Translations under genes and position numbers: made by a program | Notes under the pieces: model-generated | The model's database searches: none | Told to the model about the DNA's origin: nothing | The model's input: only the letters and a program-made list of their open reading frames with translations | Shown: positions 4,530-28,663 of the stretch, one piece after another | Numbering within the stretch: position 1 is the stretch's first letter | Layout of the letters: each line of letters starts with the position of its first letter | NCBI RefSeq assembly: GCF_035978755.1 | Contig: NZ_CP108414.1 | Coordinates: forward strand, 6,138,001 to 6,202,000 | DNA length: 64,000 nt | Reading direction: 5' to 3' | Source of the DNA: Streptomyces sp. NBC_01298 | GTDB taxonomy: Bacteria > Actinomycetota > Actinomycetes > Streptomycetales > Streptomycetaceae

Positions 4530-4790
4530 TGGGGGAGGAGTTCCCCTACCCGCCCTTCGCCCGTTCCCCGGGCTCCGCCCGGACCCGCTGCCGCGTGCGG
4601 CGCCGTTGCCGGGGACCAGTCCCCGGACCCCTGCTCCTCAAACGCCGGAGGGGCTGGATTTTGCCCGGTCGGGGCTGGATTGCCCGCAGGGCAATTCCAG
4701 CCCCGCCGGCGTTTGAGGCGCGGGGTCTGGGGCGGAGCCCCTGGGAACGGCGGAAGGGCGGGTAGGGGACGGCCCCGCAGGGTTCGCCTC
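4530..4790. repeat. CTCAAACGCCGG intergenic repeat, inverted pair (locus A)
   Basis: The interval between convergent hemW and the DUF3097 gene holds two facing copies of a streptomycete intergenic repeat. Core copies are at 4637-4658 (plus) and 4696-4717 (minus), starting CTCAAACGCCGG and ending GGGGCTGGA. Each is flanked by CCCCTACCCGCCCTTCGCC-type arms, so the whole interval can fold back on itself. Related copies are at about 12216, 15179, 24974/25039 and 63905. No gene is seen here. Confidence 0.7.
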
Positions 4791-20772: not shown

Positions 20773-22161
20773 TCAGGCCGCGACCGCCCCGACGGCGTCG
20801 GCGGGGGTCCGGCGGCGGATGATCATCGCCATCAGGGCCGCCATCGCGCACAGGGCGCCCGAGGCGTACCAGACGGGGTCGTACGAGCCGAAGGCGTCGC
20901 GGGCCAGGCCGCCGAGGAAGGCCACCAGTGCGGCGCCGACCTGGTGCGAGGCCAGGACCCAGCCGAAGACGATGGCGCCGTCCTCCCCGTAGTGCTCGCG
21001 GCACAGCGCGATCGTCGGCGGGACCGTCGCGACCCAGTCCAGGCCGTAGAAGACGATGAAGAACACCATCGGCGGGTGCACGGTCGGGGCCAGCAGCATC
21101 GGGAGGAAGAGCAGGGAGATCCCGCGCAGGGCGTAGTACACGGCCAGCAGGCGGCGCGATTCGAAGCGGTCCGTCAGCCAGCCGGAGAACACCGTGCCGA
21201 TGACGTCGAAGACGCCGATCACGGCGAGCAGCCCGGCCGCCGCCGTCACCGGCATGCCGTGGTCGTGGGCCGAGGGCACGAAGTGGGTCTTCACCAGGCC
21301 GTTGGTGGAGGCCCCGCAGATCGCGAAGGTGCCCGCCAGCAGCCAGAAGGGGCCGGTCCGGGCCGCCTTGAGCAGGACGCCCACGGCCCGGCGGGCGGCG
21401 CCGGGCACGGGCGGCGGCTTGGGCGTGTACGGGCCCCCGTACGGGGTGGTCCCGATGTCCGCCGGGTGGTCGCGCAGCAGCAGCCAGACGAAGGGCACGA
21501 CGGCCAGCGCCGCCAGCGAGACGGTGACGGCCGCGGGGCGCCAGCCGTGGTTTTCGACCAGCCAGGCCAGCAGTGGCAGGAACACCAGCTGGCCGGAGGC
21601 CCCGGCGGCGGTCAGGATGCCGGTGACCAGGCCGCGCCGGGCGGTGAACCAGCGGTTGGTCACCGTCGCGGCGAAGGCCAGGGCCATCGAGCCGCTGCCG
21701 AGCCCGACGAGGACGCCCCAGTAGAGGACCAGTTGCCAGGAGGCGGTCATCCACACGGTGGCCACCGTGCCGCCGGCTATGACGGTCAGCGCGATCGCGA
21801 CGACCCGGCGGATGCCGAAGCGGTCCATCAGGGCGGCGGCGAACGGCGCGGTGAGCCCGTACAGCGCGAGGTTCACGGAGACGGCGAGGCCGATCGTGCC
21901 CCGCGACCAGTCGAACTCCTCGTGCAGCGGCTCGATGAGCAGGCCGGGGAGCGAGGCGAAGCCGGCGGCGCCGATGATCGTCACGAAGGCGACGGCCGCG
22001 ACGAACCAGGCGCGGTGGACGCGGTGCCGCCGGGGCGGCGGTGCGTCGGCGGGGGCGCCGGTGCCGGTACCGGCGCGCGTGCCGGAGGTGGGCGTCGGTG
22101 CGGGGGAGGGGCCGGTGGAAGCGCCGGAGGCGGGGCCGGGGCCCGGTTCTGTCTGCGTCAC
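20773..22161 (-). CDS. MFS transporter (monocarboxylate/OFA-like)
   Basis: 462 residues. A long Pro/Ala/Gly-rich cytoplasmic N-terminus of about 45 residues is followed by 12 predicted TM segments in two halves with a central loop of about 40 residues. FDWSRGTIGLAVSVNLALYGLTAPFAAALMDRFGIRRV is typical of oxalate/formate- or monocarboxylate-type MFS permeases, where W/S-R follows the first loop. The substrate is unknown. GTG 22161 is the only good start. It diverges across 71 bp from a GlxA/AraC regulator that may control it. Confidence 0.8.
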   Translation of the reverse strand: MTQTEPGPGPASGASTGPSPAPTPTSGTRAGTGTGAPADAPPPRRHRVHRAWFVAAVAFVTIIGAAGFASLPGLLIEPLHEEFDWSRGTIGLAVSVNLALYGLTAPFAAALMDRFGIRRVVAIALTVIAGGTVATVWMTASWQLVLYWGVLVGLGSGSMALAFAATVTNRWFTARRGLVTGILTAAGASGQLVFLPLLAWLVENHGWRPAAVTVSLAALAVVPFVWLLLRDHPADIGTTPYGGPYTPKPPPVPGAARRAVGVLLKAARTGPFWLLAGTFAICGASTNGLVKTHFVPSAHDHGMPVTAAAGLLAVIGVFDVIGTVFSGWLTDRFESRRLLAVYYALRGISLLFLPMLLAPTVHPPMVFFIVFYGLDWVATVPPTIALCREHYGEDGAIVFGWVLASHQVGAALVAFLGGLARDAFGSYDPVWYASGALCAMAALMAMIIRRRTPADAVGAVAA

Positions 22162-22220
22162 GACGACAGTTTCCGGCCGCCGGGTGCCCGTACGACAGTG
22201 GCCTGACCGACATGCTTCGA

Positions 22221-22235
22221 TATGATCGGGCCATG
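22221..22235 (+). promoter_or_regulatory. Probable leaderless promoter of the GlxA-type regulator
   Basis: TATGAT (22221-22226), a near-consensus -10 box, lies exactly six bases before ATG 22233, and no Shine-Dalgarno sequence is present. Confidence 0.55.
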
Positions 22236-23297
22236 GAGCCTCACGCGCACCGGGTCCACCGGGTCCACCGTGTCGTCGTACTCGCCCTCGCCGGGCTGCT
22301 GCCCTTCGAGCTCGGGATCCCGCACCGGATCTTCGGGCGGGCGAAGGACCCCGCGACCGGGCGGCCGCTCTACGAGATCCTCACCTGCGGGCTCGCCCCC
22401 GGCCGGGTGCTCACGGACGCCGACTTCGACATCCACGTCGAGCACGGCCCCGAACTGCTGGCCACGGCCGACACCGTGGTCGTCCCCGCCTCCTACGAGC
22501 TGGGCCCGGTCCACTCGGAGGGCCGGCTCACCCCCGAACTGGCCGCCGCCCTCGCGCACATCAGGCCCGGCACCCGGCTCGTCTCCATCTGCACGGGCGG
22601 CTACGTGCTCGCCGCCGCCGGGTACCTGGACGGCCGTCGGGCCACCACCCACTGGTCCGCCGCCGGGCACTTCCAGCAGACCTTCCCGGCCGTCCTGGTC
22701 GACCCGGACGTGCTCTACACCGACGACGGGGACGTGCTCACCTCCGCCGGAGTCGCCGCCGGGATCGACCTGTGCCTGCACATCGTGCGCCGCGACCACG
22801 GTGCGGCCGTCGCCAACCAGACCGCCCGGTACACCGTCGTACCGCCGCACCGCGACGGCGGGCAGGCGCAGTTCATCGACCGCCCGGTGCCCGAGCCGCA
22901 GCAGGCGAGCACCACCGCGGCCCGCGCCTGGGTACTGGACCGGCTGCACGAACCGCTGCGGCTGAGTGACCTGGCCCGGCAGGAGGCCATGTCGGTACGG
23001 ACCTTCACGCGCCGGTTCCGCGAGGAATCGGGGCTCAGCCCGGGCGAATGGATCACCGGGCAGCGGGTCGAGCGGGCCCGGGCCCTGCTGGAGCAGACCG
23101 AGCTGCCGATGGAACACGTGGCCCGGGAGGCGGGATTCGGGACCGCGCAGTCCCTGCGCAAGCACGTTCAGGCGGCGCTCGGCGTGAGCCCGACGTCCTA
23201 CCGGCGGACCTTCAGGGCGGCCGCGCCGGGTACCGCGTTCGACGGCACCCTGCCATCTCCTGATGGGACATCAGTTCCTGCGGGGTCCGTGCATTGA
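22233..23297 (+). CDS. GlxA family transcriptional regulator (DJ-1/PfpI + AraC)
   Basis: 354 residues. An N-terminal DJ-1/PfpI-like domain carries TVVVPASYELGP and the nucleophile-elbow segment LVSICTGGYVLAAAGYLDGRRATTHW (about residues 115-140). The C-terminal AraC-type double helix-turn-helix contains LSDLARQEAMSVRTFTRRFREESGLSPGEWI and MEHVAREAGFGTAQSLRKHV. Regulators of this class control adjacent transport or catabolic genes. The divergent MFS gene is the natural target (inference). The start is supported by the TATGAT-N6-ATG arrangement. Confidence 0.9.
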   Translation: MEPHAHRVHRVHRVVVLALAGLLPFELGIPHRIFGRAKDPATGRPLYEILTCGLAPGRVLTDADFDIHVEHGPELLATADTVVVPASYELGPVHSEGRLTPELAAALAHIRPGTRLVSICTGGYVLAAAGYLDGRRATTHWSAAGHFQQTFPAVLVDPDVLYTDDGDVLTSAGVAAGIDLCLHIVRRDHGAAVANQTARYTVVPPHRDGGQAQFIDRPVPEPQQASTTAARAWVLDRLHEPLRLSDLARQEAMSVRTFTRRFREESGLSPGEWITGQRVERARALLEQTELPMEHVAREAGFGTAQSLRKHVQAALGVSPTSYRRTFRAAAPGTAFDGTLPSPDGTSVPAGSVH

Positions 23298-23360: not shown

Positions 23361-24854
23361 GTGCGGACTTCGGCGCGAACGACGGCGCGGCACAGAGGAT
23401 GGTCGGCGGCCGTCGGCATGGCGGTACTGGCCGCGGCGACCGGGGGCGCGCTGAGCACCCCCGCGGCGGCGGAGGGGGAGACGCCTCCCGGGCAGGTCGA
23501 GTTCCCGACGCACTGCCTGCCGCCCCAGGAAGCCGGACTGCCGCCGGCCGACGGGCCCACCACCGCCCGGGTCACCGTGGACGACGTGACGCCGCGCGTG
23601 GGCGACACCGTCACCGTCACCTACCAGGTGGCCCGGACCCCCGCCGTGAACCCCCTCTCGGTCGCGCTGCCCGGCGACGCCCTCACCCCGACCGGGCGGA
23701 TCGTCCTCGGAGGCGCGCAGCAGGGCGAGGTCACGGTCGTCGGAGCCAAGCGCAACGACCCCGTCGCGGTGGGCGGGGCGCTGCCCGCCGTCACCATGAC
23801 CGGCACCTTCACCGTCACCGCTCCCGGCGAGATCACCCTGGCCCCGGGCGGCTACACCCTGCACACCGGGCACCTCCTCGAACTCGACACCGTGTGCGCG
23901 GTCGCCGGGGGCGTGGAGCCGGGACCGGAGCCTTCCGCGTCGGCGTCGGCTTCGGAGTCGGCTTCGGCCTCGGAGGTGCCGCCGCCTCCAACGCCGTCCC
24001 CGTCGGCCTCGTCGTCTCCGGGGCCGCTGCCGCTGCCGGCGCCGGCTCCGCTCCCGGGCGGGGCCCCGGTGGCGCAGCGGATCACCGCGAGCCCGCTGCC
24101 GACGGCCAACGTGCGCGCCGTCGCGCTCGGCACGGCCGCGGGCGGCCCGGGCGCCAAGGTCAAGGTCACCGGAGCCGGCTTCGTGCCCGGTGCGGAGGTC
24201 ACCGTGGCGGGCCGGGCGGGTGCGGCGGAGACCGCCGACCGGGTCACCGCCAAGGCCGACGAGCTCGGCGTGGTCCTCGCGGAGCTGCCGGTCACGGACC
24301 GGGCGACCACCGCCGTCGTGGCGTACGAGGGCGCGGCCTGGACTCCGGAGCGGGGCTCCGGCCCGGCCGCGTACACGGTGATCGTCGCCGTTCCGCTGCC
24401 GCCGGGGAGCCAGACGGTGACGGCGGTCGTGGAGCCGGGCGAGCTGGGCATGACCCAGGAGGGCGACGCCGTGACCCTGGCCGCGGTCCCGTACGGGGAC
24501 GGTGGCGCGGCGGCCGGCCGGATCGGCACCGTCACCGTCAAGGACGCCCGCGGCGGGCCGGCCGGGTGGTCCCTGATCGGCAAGGTCACCGATTTCACGG
24601 GTGCCGGCGGGCTCCGCATCCCGGGTGCCTCCCTGAGCTGGACCCCGACGTGTGAGGCCGCGCCCGGCAGCCCCAGCGCGTGTGCGCCGGGCAGCGCGGG
24701 CACGGTCGGGCCCGACGGCGCGGTCCTGGCCTCGACCGGTGACGCCACCCTCGTCGGCGGCACCTTCACCGTCGACGCGGCCGTCACCCTCCAGGTCCCC
24801 CCGTACACCCCGCCGGGCGCCTACACGGCGGTGCTGACGCTGACGTTGTCGTGA
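23361..24854 (+). CDS. Secreted WxL-domain-like surface protein
   Basis: 497 residues. A signal peptide (MRTSARTTARHRGWSAAVGMAVLAA...STPAAA) cleaves near residue 38. A beta-rich N-terminal domain (VTPRVGDTVTVTYQV) leads to a Ser/Ala/Pro linker of about 45 residues (ASASASESASAS, PPPPTPSPSASSSPG). A second beta domain then precedes a C-terminal region with the WxL hallmarks: a VTVKDARGG-GWSLIGKVTDF strand pair (about 385-413) and a final GAYTAVLTLTLS. WxL proteins bind peptidoglycan non-covalently and pair with DUF916 proteins. The next frame encodes exactly that and overlaps the stop (GTGA at 24851), supporting the call. No sortase signal. Confidence 0.75.
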   Translation: MRTSARTTARHRGWSAAVGMAVLAAATGGALSTPAAAEGETPPGQVEFPTHCLPPQEAGLPPADGPTTARVTVDDVTPRVGDTVTVTYQVARTPAVNPLSVALPGDALTPTGRIVLGGAQQGEVTVVGAKRNDPVAVGGALPAVTMTGTFTVTAPGEITLAPGGYTLHTGHLLELDTVCAVAGGVEPGPEPSASASASESASASEVPPPPTPSPSASSSPGPLPLPAPAPLPGGAPVAQRITASPLPTANVRAVALGTAAGGPGAKVKVTGAGFVPGAEVTVAGRAGAAETADRVTAKADELGVVLAELPVTDRATTAVVAYEGAAWTPERGSGPAAYTVIVAVPLPPGSQTVTAVVEPGELGMTQEGDAVTLAAVPYGDGGAAAGRIGTVTVKDARGGPAGWSLIGKVTDFTGAGGLRIPGASLSWTPTCEAAPGSPSACAPGSAGTVGPDGAVLASTGDATLVGGTFTVDAAVTLQVPPYTPPGAYTAVLTLTLS

Positions 24855-26185
24855 CCCGGCCCAGCCCCTCCGCAGCCCCTGCGCCGCTGCGCGGGGCCGT
24901 CTCCCCGCCCCGCCCTTCGCCGGTTCCCCGGGCTGTGACCGGACCCCCTGGGGCTCGGTCCCAGACCCCGCGCCTCCAACGCCGGCGAGGCTGGATCTGG
25001 CCGGCGCCGGCCTGTTTGTGCGGGCCACATCAGCGAAATCCAGCCCCTCCGGCGTTTGAGGAGCGGGGGTCCGGGGGTTGGCCACCGGGAACGGCGCCGC
25101 ACCCGGCAACGGGTCCGGGGCGGAGCCCCGGGGAACGGGGGAGTGGCGGGGCGGGGAGAGGAACCCCGCGGGACCGCCCCGGGCGCGCGTCCCACCGGCG
25201 TGCCGCAGGCGAGGAACCGGCACCGGCACCGGCACCGGCTGCGCGGGCGTGGCCGCGCCGGGCCGGGTCGGCGGCCGCCGCCGTGCTCGTGGGGCTCGGC
25301 ATGCTCCTGCTCGGCGGAGCCGGACCCGCCGCCGCCGCCGACAACGGGCAGTGGTCCGTGCTGCCCGCCGCCAACACGATCGGGCAGCGGCCGTACTTCT
25401 ACCTCGCCGCCGGCCCCGGCCAGAGCGTCACCGACTCCGTCACCATCGCCAACCGCACGGACCGCCCCCGCACCTTCCGCCTCTACGCCGCCGACGCCTA
25501 CAACACCGCCCGCGACGGCGGCTTCGCCCTGCGCGGGCCCGAGGAGCCGCGCACCGCCACGGGTGCCTGGACGGCGCTGGCGCGGGAGCGGATCACCGTC
25601 CCGGCGAAGACGGCGGTCGACGTCGGCTTCACCCTCACCGTCCCCGACCGGGCCGAACCCGGCGACCATCCTGGAGCCGTCGTCGCCCTGGAGGACCGGC
25701 CGGGCGCCGCCACTCAGGGGATAGGGATTCAGCAGGCCGTCGCCGCCCGCGTCTACCTGCGGGTCACCGGTCCCACCGCCCCCGCCCTGGCGGTCGAGGA
25801 CCTCCGCACCGCCACCGCCCGCGGCGCCGCCGCCGGCGCGGAGATCTCGTACACGCTCCACAACCTCGGCAACGTCACCCTGCGCCCCCGCGCCACTCTG
25901 ACCGCCTCCGGGGCGCTGGGCCGGAAACTGATCTCCCGTCCCCTCACCGGCCTGCCCGCCGAGCTGCTGCCCGGCCAGCGGGTCCGGCTCACCGCGCACT
26001 GGGCGGACCCGCCCGCCCTGGAATGGGCCGAGGTCGCGGTGGTGGCGCGGGCCGACGGCACGGCCGCCCGGGCCGCCGCCGGACACGCCGCGCACCCCGC
26101 CCTGAACGTCCTGCTCGCGACCGCTCTGGCCCTCCTGGCGGCGGCCTGGTCGGCGCTGGGAGCCGCATCGGGGAGAATGGCCCGT
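24851..26185 (+). CDS. DUF916 (WxL-associated peptidoglycan-binding) protein, no stop before era
   Basis: The recognisable protein begins near base 25265. A signal-like core (AAAAVLVGLGMLLLGGAGPAAAA) precedes a DUF916 domain, whose visible segments include NGQWSVLPAAN, PYFYLAAGPGQSVTDSVTIAN, FTLTVPDRAEPGDHPGAVVAL and VAARVYLRVTGP. The DUF916 domain is followed by a C-terminal TM helix (ALNVLLATALALLAAAWSALGA). DUF916 proteins are type I membrane proteins working with WxL partners. Both ends are abnormal. The only upstream in-frame starts are GTG 24851, which overlaps the WxL stop and reads through repeat D, GTG 24935 and TTG 25016; GTG 25200 is out of frame. At the 3' end no stop occurs and the frame enters era, 758 codons in all. 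A +1 frame would end in TGA overlapping era ATG. Confidence 0.7.
24856..25195. repeat. CTCAAACGCCGG intergenic repeat, inverted pair (locus D)
   Basis: Facing core copies at 24974-24995 (one substitution: CTCCAACGCC) and 25039-25060 (minus orientation). Outer arms resemble those of loci A and B and end in a run of GGGGAACGGGGGAGTGGCGGG. The repeat separates the WxL gene from the recognisable part of the DUF916 gene and, unusually, stays open in the DUF916 frame. Confidence 0.7.
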
Positions 26186-26188
26186 ATG
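26173..26188 (+). promoter_or_regulatory. Probable leaderless promoter of era inside the DUF916 gene
   Basis: GAGAAT (26173-26178) stands seven bases before ATG 26186. GGGGAG at 26170-26175 could instead act as a Shine-Dalgarno sequence at 10 nt. Either signal would allow Era to be made as a separate protein. Confidence 0.4.
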
Positions 26189-27127
26189 AGCGATCGTTCC
26201 CCCGAGACCACCAGCCCGCACCGTGCGGGCTTCGCATGCTTCGTCGGCCGTCCCAACGCGGGGAAGTCGACCCTGACCAACGCGCTCGTGGGTACCAAGG
26301 TCGCGATCACCTCCAACCGGCCGCAGACCACCCGCCACACGGTCCGCGGCATCGTGCACCGCCCCGACGCCCAGCTCGTCCTGGTCGACACGCCCGGCCT
26401 CCACAAGCCGCGCACGCTGCTCGGCGAGCGGCTGAACGACGTCGTGCGCGCGACCTGGTCCGAGGTCGACGTGATCGGCTTCTGCCTGCCCGCGGACCAG
26501 AAGCTCGGCCCCGGTGACAAGTTCATCGTCAAGGAGCTCGCGGGGATCAAGAAGACCCCCAAGATCGCCATCATCACCAAGACCGACCTCGTCGAGTCGA
26601 AGGTGGTGGGCGAGCAGCTCATCGCCGTGCACCAGCTCGCCGAGGAGCTCGGCTTCGAGTGGGCCGAGATCGTCCCCGTCTCGGCGGTCGGCGACACCCA
26701 GGTCCAGCTGCTGGCGGACCTGATCGCGCCCATGCTGCCGAAGAGCCCGCCGCTGTACCCGGAGGGCGACCTCACCGACGAGCCCGAGATGGTGATGGTC
26801 GCGGAACTGATCCGCGAGGCCGCGCTGGAGGGCGTACGGGACGAGCTCCCGCACTCCATCGCCGTGGTCGTCGAGGAGATGATCCCCCGGGAGAACCGCC
26901 CGGCGGACCGCCCCCTGCTGGACATCCACGCCAACCTCTACATCGAGCGGCCGAGCCAGAAGGGCATCATCATCGGCCCGAAGGGCGCCCGGCTGAAGGA
27001 GGTCGGGATGAAGTCGCGCAAGCACATCGAGGCGCTGCTCGGCACCCCGGTCTTCCTCGACCTGCACGTGAAGGTCGCCAAGGACTGGCAGCGCGACCCC
27101 AAGCAGCTGCGCAAGCTGGGCTTCTAG
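26186..27127 (+). CDS. era: GTPase Era
   Basis: 313-residue essential GTPase for 16S rRNA and 30S subunit maturation. The G domain has G1 GRPNAGKST, the G2/switch I segment NRPQTTRHT, G3 DTPGLHKP and G4 TKTD, followed by VSAVGDTQV. The C-terminal KH domain shows GIIIGPKGARLKEVGMKSRKHIE. ATG 26186 (MSDRSPETT) is preferred over ATG 26177, which abuts the purine-rich stretch. The upstream DUF916 frame continues in frame into this gene. An internal start must produce normal soluble Era, while a membrane-tethered fusion is formally possible. Confidence 0.95.
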   Translation: MSDRSPETTSPHRAGFACFVGRPNAGKSTLTNALVGTKVAITSNRPQTTRHTVRGIVHRPDAQLVLVDTPGLHKPRTLLGERLNDVVRATWSEVDVIGFCLPADQKLGPGDKFIVKELAGIKKTPKIAIITKTDLVESKVVGEQLIAVHQLAEELGFEWAEIVPVSAVGDTQVQLLADLIAPMLPKSPPLYPEGDLTDEPEMVMVAELIREAALEGVRDELPHSIAVVVEEMIPRENRPADRPLLDIHANLYIERPSQKGIIIGPKGARLKEVGMKSRKHIEALLGTPVFLDLHVKVAKDWQRDPKQLRKLGF

Positions 27128-28015: not shown

Positions 28016-28663
28016 TCAGAATTGCGCGGGACGCCCCCAGTCCGGCGGCAGCAGGTCCGAGAGGTCGCCCAGGCCGCGCTCCCGCCACTGCCCGAAGGTC
28101 AGCGGGGCCGCGCCGCCCGGGTGGTCCAGGGACAGCGGCACGATCAGGTCGCAGGTGGCCCGGCCGTCCCACCAGACCGTCCCGGCCAGCGGTCCCGCGA
28201 GCGCGAGCAGGGTGGCGAAGCCGCAGCCGTTGTCCCGCAGCACCACGCAGCCGGCCGTCTTGCGGTCCTCGAACTCGTCGCCCTCGGCCTCGTTCCAGGC
28301 CTGCCGGGCCGTCCGGAGGGCGGCCTCGTCGGGGAAGTCCTCCTCGCGGGGGAACCGCTCCCACAGCGCCGCGTCCGCCTCGACGTAGGAATCGGGGTGC
28401 GGGAAGGGCGCGGGCAGCAGATCGCGCCGCGTGTCCGGGTTCCCCGCCCACCACCAGCCGTCCGGGCCCCGCTCCAGCGGGTGCAGCGGGCCGCCCGCGC
28501 CGACGTCGAGGAGGTACGAGCGGTACGCGGGAGGGAAGCGGATGCCGAGCTCCGCCTCCGCCTGTTCCACCTCGGCTCCGGTCAGCGGCGCCGGCGCGGC
28601 GGGCCGTCCAGCGGCCGGGTCCCGGGGCCACGTGCGGCGGCGGCCCAGCAGCCGGCCGATCAC
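28016..28663 (-). CDS. SMI1/KNR4 family protein
   Basis: 215 residues with the SMI1/KNR4 core: LTGAEVEQAEAELGIRFPPAYRSYLLDVGAGGPLHPLE, then a C-terminal WDGRATCDLIVPL region. In bacteria this superfamily includes many toxin-immunity proteins, but no toxin gene adjoins, so the role is open. GTG 28663 is the start. A 17-bp tandem duplication at the junction places it 13 bp after the upstream GNAT stop rather than overlapping it. Confidence 0.85.
   Translation of the reverse strand: MIGRLLGRRRTWPRDPAAGRPAAPAPLTGAEVEQAEAELGIRFPPAYRSYLLDVGAGGPLHPLERGPDGWWWAGNPDTRRDLLPAPFPHPDSYVEADAALWERFPREEDFPDEAALRTARQAWNEAEGDEFEDRKTAGCVVLRDNGCGFATLLALAGPLAGTVWWDGRATCDLIVPLSLDHPGGAAPLTFGQWRERGLGDLSDLLPPDWGRPAQF

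Follow-up and report, generated by a model that had tools for sequence, protein, structure and literature searches.

What does it mean that the gene for a surface protein runs, without a stop codon, into the gene for the GTPase Era? The question is raised by a window of 64,000 nucleotides (nt) from Streptomyces sp. NBC_01298 (assembly GCF_035978755.1, contig NZ_CP108414.1, positions 6,138,001 to 6,202,000, the whole stretch analyzed here), in which the frame of a WxLIP (DUF916) surface protein with a predicted transmembrane helix continues into era (Table 1). We consider it likely that this is a genuine gene fusion, probably of single origin, with two products from one locus. A start at the stop codon of the upstream WxL-like gene (GTGA) would drive WxLIP translation, and ribosomes, meeting no stop, would read on into Era. 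The fused product would be a type I membrane protein, with the WxLIP outside, one helix, and a cytoplasmic Era about 17 residues from the membrane. Free Era would arise from its own start signals (GAGAAT, 7 nt, and ATG 26186), nested in the 3' coding part of WxLIP, possibly with a GGGGAG ribosome site as a second aid. The promoter block would have been co-opted as code for the second half of the helix, which would entrench the fusion. On this reading, both forms of Era are probably made.

The only stop codon in the frame is the terminal one, as an initial annotation of this DNA had read it, and from stop to stop the frame extends over 794 amino acids (aa). Two ATG codons lie in frame with the fusion, at 26177 and 26186, and the TGA that had been noted in the +1 frame does overlap the second of these (ATGA). 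The identity of Era is given by NF000908 (350.2 bits versus a cut-off of 237), TIGR00436 (214.9 versus 116.25), and the KH_2 domain (54.8 bits versus 22). The gene is present in a single copy in the genome; three other matches showed 29 to 33% identity and covered parts of the GTPase. A role of Era in assembly of the small ribosomal subunit is taken from its family.

The WxLIP part was recognized by its DUF916 domain. Its profile match to the solved EfmWxLIP1 was weak (E value, 0.017), and Foldseek matched the WxLIP model to 9i25_C and 9i1y_A with low TM-scores, given the length of the model and the poor quality of parts of it. Pfam DUF3324 gave no match in this part, yet AlphaFold2 (AF2) predicted more confident beta strands after DUF916. 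A transmembrane helix following these domains was predicted by both AF2 and hydropathy; the AF2 helix (residues 286 to 309; block means of the predicted local distance difference test [pLDDT], 81, 88, and 71) runs as one helix through WSALGAA. The whole-model mean pLDDT was 57.6, and the Era part, for which the alignment is nearly invariant, was poor and was left uninterpreted. In agreement with the initial annotation, the predicted topology of a read-through product would place the ectodomain outside and Era at the cytoplasmic face. Unlike in the three-domain WxLIPs, the helix is not the terminal domain here; Era follows without a stop, and the protein was therefore filed as a WxLIP-Era fusion. 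The upstream neighbor scored 20.8 bits with PF13731 (WxL), under the cut-off of 25, and had no NCBIfam match.

The N-terminal region of the WxLIP varies among fused genomes. Judged by eye, the signal peptide lies about 130 to 140 codons past the overlapping start in this strain and near the start in relatives such as L009 and L018. The distance from the start to the mature protein is 165 codons here versus 35 in L009, and the approximately 130 extra codons are largely repeat sequence of the interspersed type, in which two inverted arms of 40 nt (24893-24932 and 25127-25166) are 83% complementary. The frame is kept despite a long N-terminal stretch in L005 to L007 as well (135, 231, and 136 codons, respectively). 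How large the product of this strain is, and whether it is exported, is accordingly less certain, and its export is more doubtful than that of the L009 or L018 product. The interspersed motif TCAAACGCCGG..GGGCTG had six matches in the window (mean of 0.00 in 100 shuffles), at 25041-25059 on the minus strand and also at 4638, 4698, 12217, 15180, and 63906; the copy at 25041 sits within the WxLIP frame, which stays open.

WxLIP (DUF916), transmembrane helix, and Era were found in one frame in 30 distinct genomes, this strain included, among them S. lavendulae, S. virginiae, S. xanthophaeus, S. avidinii, S. katrae, S. goshikiensis, S. cirratus, and S. bambusae. The WxLIP query matched 200 of 295 Streptomyces genomes; in 17 of the 295 (this one included) the alignment ran stop-free to the residue preceding the era methionine, and named genomes added 13. 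For era loci, these 17 fused genomes and 80 others of the 295 were searched, and 60 of the 80 were fetched. In a tree of era DNA, the 30 fused genomes, three without WxLIP (L039, L040, and L041), and the degraded L038 formed one clade (support, 99/95); from the 80 named loci, the 20 from L098 to L117 were used, 7 of which are the same as unnamed loci. In none of the 34 sampled clade genomes did a WxLIP have a stop before era. The comparison with other Streptomyces carrying DUF916 next to era, suggested at the outset, thus produced an in-frame fusion throughout 30 genomes of one clade, and the accompanying doubt about a missed base in the sequence is dispelled by the same open frame in all of them. 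A protein search returned 66 proteins, 41 of which (P0002 to P0042) were full-length fusion clusters of 602 to 653 aa; several fusion proteins bear the name GTPase Era in the database.

Damage to WxLIP within the clade comprised three absences, the degraded L038, a one-base frameshift in L020, and an N-terminal part that was not found in L022. The N-terminal part was likewise not found in L038, in which the C-terminal part is shortened, and the frame into Era is open in all three damaged loci. The broken WxLIPs of L020, L022, and L038 could reflect either errors in draft assemblies or decay of the gene. Outside the clade, in the predicted protein P0044 (487 aa), part of a WxLIP continues, apparently after a frame change, into an unfused-type Era; it is either a separate fusion or a gene-call artifact and was excluded from the fusion count. 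Two further WxLIP-domain frames in the same genome, L001 and L003, are open over 581 and 684 aa, respectively, and no era was found within 3.3 kilobases around either.

Openness of the era frame over a long upstream stretch was rejected as proof by itself, as such stretches are common in this GC-rich genus: outside the clade, the era frame was open upstream for at least 100 codons at 25 of 56 loci and for at least 300 codons at 7 of 56. The feature beyond chance expectation is that the frame open into Era is the one that codes for WxLIP. The WxLIP coding frame was the frame open into Era in 31 of 31 clade genomes with WxLIP sequence (the 30 fused genomes and L038), and the phase of WxLIP relative to era in 21 unfused relatives was distributed 8/5/8. 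In all 27 fused genomes scored, the WxL stop was overlapped by GTG (once ATG), and from this start the frame was stop-free into Era in 26, the exception being L020 with its frameshift. In 4 of the 31 rows (L011, L014, L022, and L038) the end of WxL could not be located; L011 and L014 do show the in-frame start. Across the 26 genomes, the distance from the start to the mature protein took 23 different values (28 to 231 codons), for which the tree requires no fewer than 23 changes, each of them in phase. Had such changes been free, the chance of phase retention would be about 1e-11, a rough value that treats the changes as independent. The ratio of nonsynonymous to synonymous substitution rates (dN/dS) of the WxLIP ectodomain was 0.37 among seven close genomes, the set whose values are to be trusted. 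WxLIP thus looks to be kept translatable under moderate constraint. As a fused WxLIP has no stop of its own, its product, where translated, should extend through Era, provided that ribosomes do not drop off the mRNA.

The end of the WxLIP coding sequence also carries what look like the start signals of era. GA[GC]AAT precedes the era ATG at 77 of 77 loci, by 7 nt in 75 and by 6 nt in 2, whichever gene lies upstream; these counts omit L028 and L029 (repeats of L046 and L065) and L032 (era cut by the locus end). The -35-like TGGTCG was present at 21 of 21 clade loci versus 8 of 56 others, and the block from TGGTCGG to the ATG is retained in L039, L040, and L041, where WxLIP is gone. The hexamer and its spacing are consistent with a leaderless-type promoter for era, and a ribosome site might in addition be provided by GGGGAG, which lies 10 nt 5' of the ATG. 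The leaderless-type internal start that the initial annotation had proposed for free Era is therefore present, at the level of sequence. The locus name of era is presumably SCO2539. This name has no occurrence in the main text of a study of S. coelicolor transcription starts (PMC4895711). That study reported that 21.0% of primary starts give leaderless messages and that the -10 consensus is TANNNT; the Shine-Dalgarno consensus is RRGGAG (PMC6742748).

Read in the fused frame, the block codes for WSALGAASGRMAR, in which WSALGAA makes up the latter half of the predicted helix of WxLIP. Of 59 fused sequences (from 17 loci and from 42 proteins, P0002 to P0043, with species partly repeated), 51 contain a 19-residue window whose hydropathy averages 1.6 or more when the block is counted, and 24 do when it is left out. 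Unfused WxLIPs have their own complete helix and basic tail at 33 of 34 loci, and in the 21 unfused relatives scored their stop lies 30 to 253 nt 5' of the era ATG, never overlapping it. The two deepest branches of the clade (their order is weakly supported) are both fused and have lost less of the ancestral tail: in L018 (S. bambusae) the helix is followed by RR, and L116 (NRRL S-87) has the helix, a basic tail, and a linker but no stop. The LLPG motif is separated from the era methionine by 103, 81, 74, or 70 codons, with at least four changes on the tree, and it lies in the era frame in 30 of 30 genomes. These patterns suggest that the stop was lost first and the tail was trimmed later. The idea that the arginines of GRMAR were selected after the fusion as a positive-inside signal was rejected, as the clade genomes without WxLIP have the same bases.

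Several observations weigh against the fusion being expressed and maintained as proposed. GTG also occurs at the WxL stop in 4 of 20 unfused controls (CTG in the other 16), and at 10 of these 20 loci the codon at this position shares the reading frame of WxLIP; in L049, the remaining one of the 21 control loci, the end of WxL could not be located. Over 17 genomes, which include the two broken ectodomains of L020 and L022, the ectodomain dN/dS rose to 0.57, and the part of the helix preceding the block is weakly constrained (0.57 among the 7 genomes, 0.74 among the 17). The absence of stops inside the block is not independent proof of selection for the fusion, since the era start signals constrain these bases. 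The -10-like hexamer has G where TANNNT has T, though its A at position 2, its T at position 6, the 7-nt spacing, and the AUG agree with expectation, and the -35-like site is poor. In this strain, moreover, the repeat insertion parts the overlapping start from the signal peptide. Last, WxLIP is lost or damaged in 6 of 34 clade genomes. This last count and the weak constraint on the helix part, together with the DNA-level conservation of the block even in genomes without WxLIP and the frequency of open frames in GC-rich DNA, would also be expected if the frame were passive, that is, if WxLIP were barely or never translated, the era signals and composition excluded stops, and all Era were free. 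We think this unlikely: phase was kept in 26 of 27 genomes from the WxL-stop start through at least 23 length changes, the ectodomain of close genomes is constrained, and hydrophobicity is retained while the sequence changes.

If the fused protein is made, it might be adaptive, with Era tethered near a wall-binding WxL complex so that the state of the surface controls small-subunit assembly or local translation. The fusion has indeed been maintained in frame in 30 genomes, and binding of Era to the membrane has been a subject of work on Streptococcus pneumoniae, to judge from titles cited in a 2023 review (PMC10582724). However, the three separate losses of WxLIP that retained the era start signals suggest a dispensable tether, and Era fusions are described in the same review as extremely rare, probably for steric reasons; we regard this explanation as improbable. 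Equally doubtful is its fuller form, a WxL/WxLIP envelope complex with Era as its cytoplasmic domain, in which envelope state would tune 30S assembly while the promoter bases both encode half of the helix and supply free Era. Proteolytic release, in which the full-length product would be cut near the membrane and WxLIP expression would be an extra source of Era, has a short linker and the continuous frame in its favor and nothing else; the internal start already accounts for free Era, and we consider this route very improbable. A recent one-base indel or sequencing error joining two overlapping genes is almost certainly not the cause. The ATGA overlap in the +1 frame would fit it, as would the outgroup L090 (G089), in which this very TGA is the stop codon of another membrane protein and the block is read as SGRMAA, an ordinary overlapping-gene state. 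The identical frame is nevertheless shared by 30 genomes, and no WxLIP overlaps era in the 21 unfused relatives scored. Because unfused stops never overlap era and L116 keeps its tail without a stop, stop loss followed by trimming fits better than an indel between once-overlapping genes. The initial annotation therefore holds for the in-phase frame, the predicted topology, and the internal start and fails for the one-base origin. Returning to a genuine fusion with two products, we infer that the tether is a tolerated, entrenched by-product rather than needed or adaptive, as three lineages lost WxLIP and kept the era start signals.

Table 1. Features of the WxLIP-Era locus, in positions of the window
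Feature	Position	Strand	Remark
WxL-like surface protein gene, upstream partner	23361..24854	+	497 aa; TGA overlaps next start
GTGA overlap of WxLIP start (GTG) and WxL stop (TGA)	24851..24854	+	candidate translational coupling
WxLIP-transmembrane-Era fused open frame	24851..27127	+	758 aa from GTG 24851
Interspersed-repeat region between coupled start and signal peptide	24893..25166	.	frame open
Signal-peptide-like stretch preceding mature DNGQWSV	25241..25339	+	by eye; AF2 helix at its positions 10-24
DUF916/WxLIP peptidoglycan-binding domain	25361..25681	+	PF06030, 35.7 bits versus cut-off 27.3
Predicted transmembrane helix, extending into promoter-coded residues	26096..26167	+	AF2 and hydropathy
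Conserved block coding for WSALGAASGRMAR and containing era start signals	26147..26185	+	
-35-like TGGTCG	26147..26152	+	weak consensus match; 20-nt spacer
GGGGAG, possible Shine-Dalgarno site	26170..26175	+	10 nt 5' of ATG 26186
-10-like GAGAAT	26173..26178	+	7 nt 5' of ATG 26186; leaderless-type spacing
Era GTPase, sole era found in genome	26186..27127	+	313 aa; NF000908

Among the neighboring genes, an AraC/DJ-1 type regulator lies upstream of the WxL gene (22041-23297, plus strand), and a SMI1/KNR4 (SUKH) family protein is encoded downstream of era (28016-28663, minus strand). In L041, where both WxL and WxLIP are gone, a frame that by eye resembles the AraC/DJ-1 regulator lies directly upstream of era.

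In the improbable case that the envelope complex acts through Era, an essential ribosome-assembly GTPase would be wired to the cell surface, with one locus serving two compartments. On the reading favored here, a domain combination that has been hard to interpret would become a testable case, with natural reversions in three lineages, and would illustrate how loss of a stop can be followed by the start signals of an essential gene turning into code for a membrane helix. The proteins of about 630 aa named GTPase Era in these species probably conceal two products, the free form starting internally.

The bare DUF916-Era architecture is already in print. The 2023 review, taking it from InterPro, noted Era fused "with DUF916 in certain Streptomyces sp." and called it difficult to interpret (PMC10582724); the domain architecture is identical to that of the fusion described here. 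Neither the legend of Figure 3B nor the section on extra domains in that review mentions a membrane helix, nested promoter, species range, losses, or two products. Our literature search, with subscription papers and supplements outside its reach, found nothing on the helix, nested promoter, two products, or history of the fusion and no paper on a membrane-tethered Era in Streptomyces or on such a nested promoter. The same review describes YbeY-Era and RNase III-Era, which likewise combine Era with another domain in one polypeptide (YbeY being N-terminal); their partners are RNA or ribosome-biogenesis factors, whereas WxLIP is an exported surface protein. The WxLIP part resembles the DUF916-DUF3324-transmembrane WxLIPs (PMC10599100; solved relatives, 9i25 and 9i1y) in its DUF916, predicted second beta domain, and predicted single helix, and probably also in its signal peptide, judged by eye, and its WxL-like neighbor, which scored under the cut-off. 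Those proteins, as described there, consist of two domains and a helix; here Era follows, and the helix would be coded partly by the era start-signal block. Leaderless Streptomyces genes, about 20% of transcripts in the studies cited above (PMC4895711, PMC6742748), have a -10 element a few bases before the AUG, where era has its -10-like hexamer, but the promoter-like site of era is embedded in the coding sequence of the preceding gene and read in its frame.

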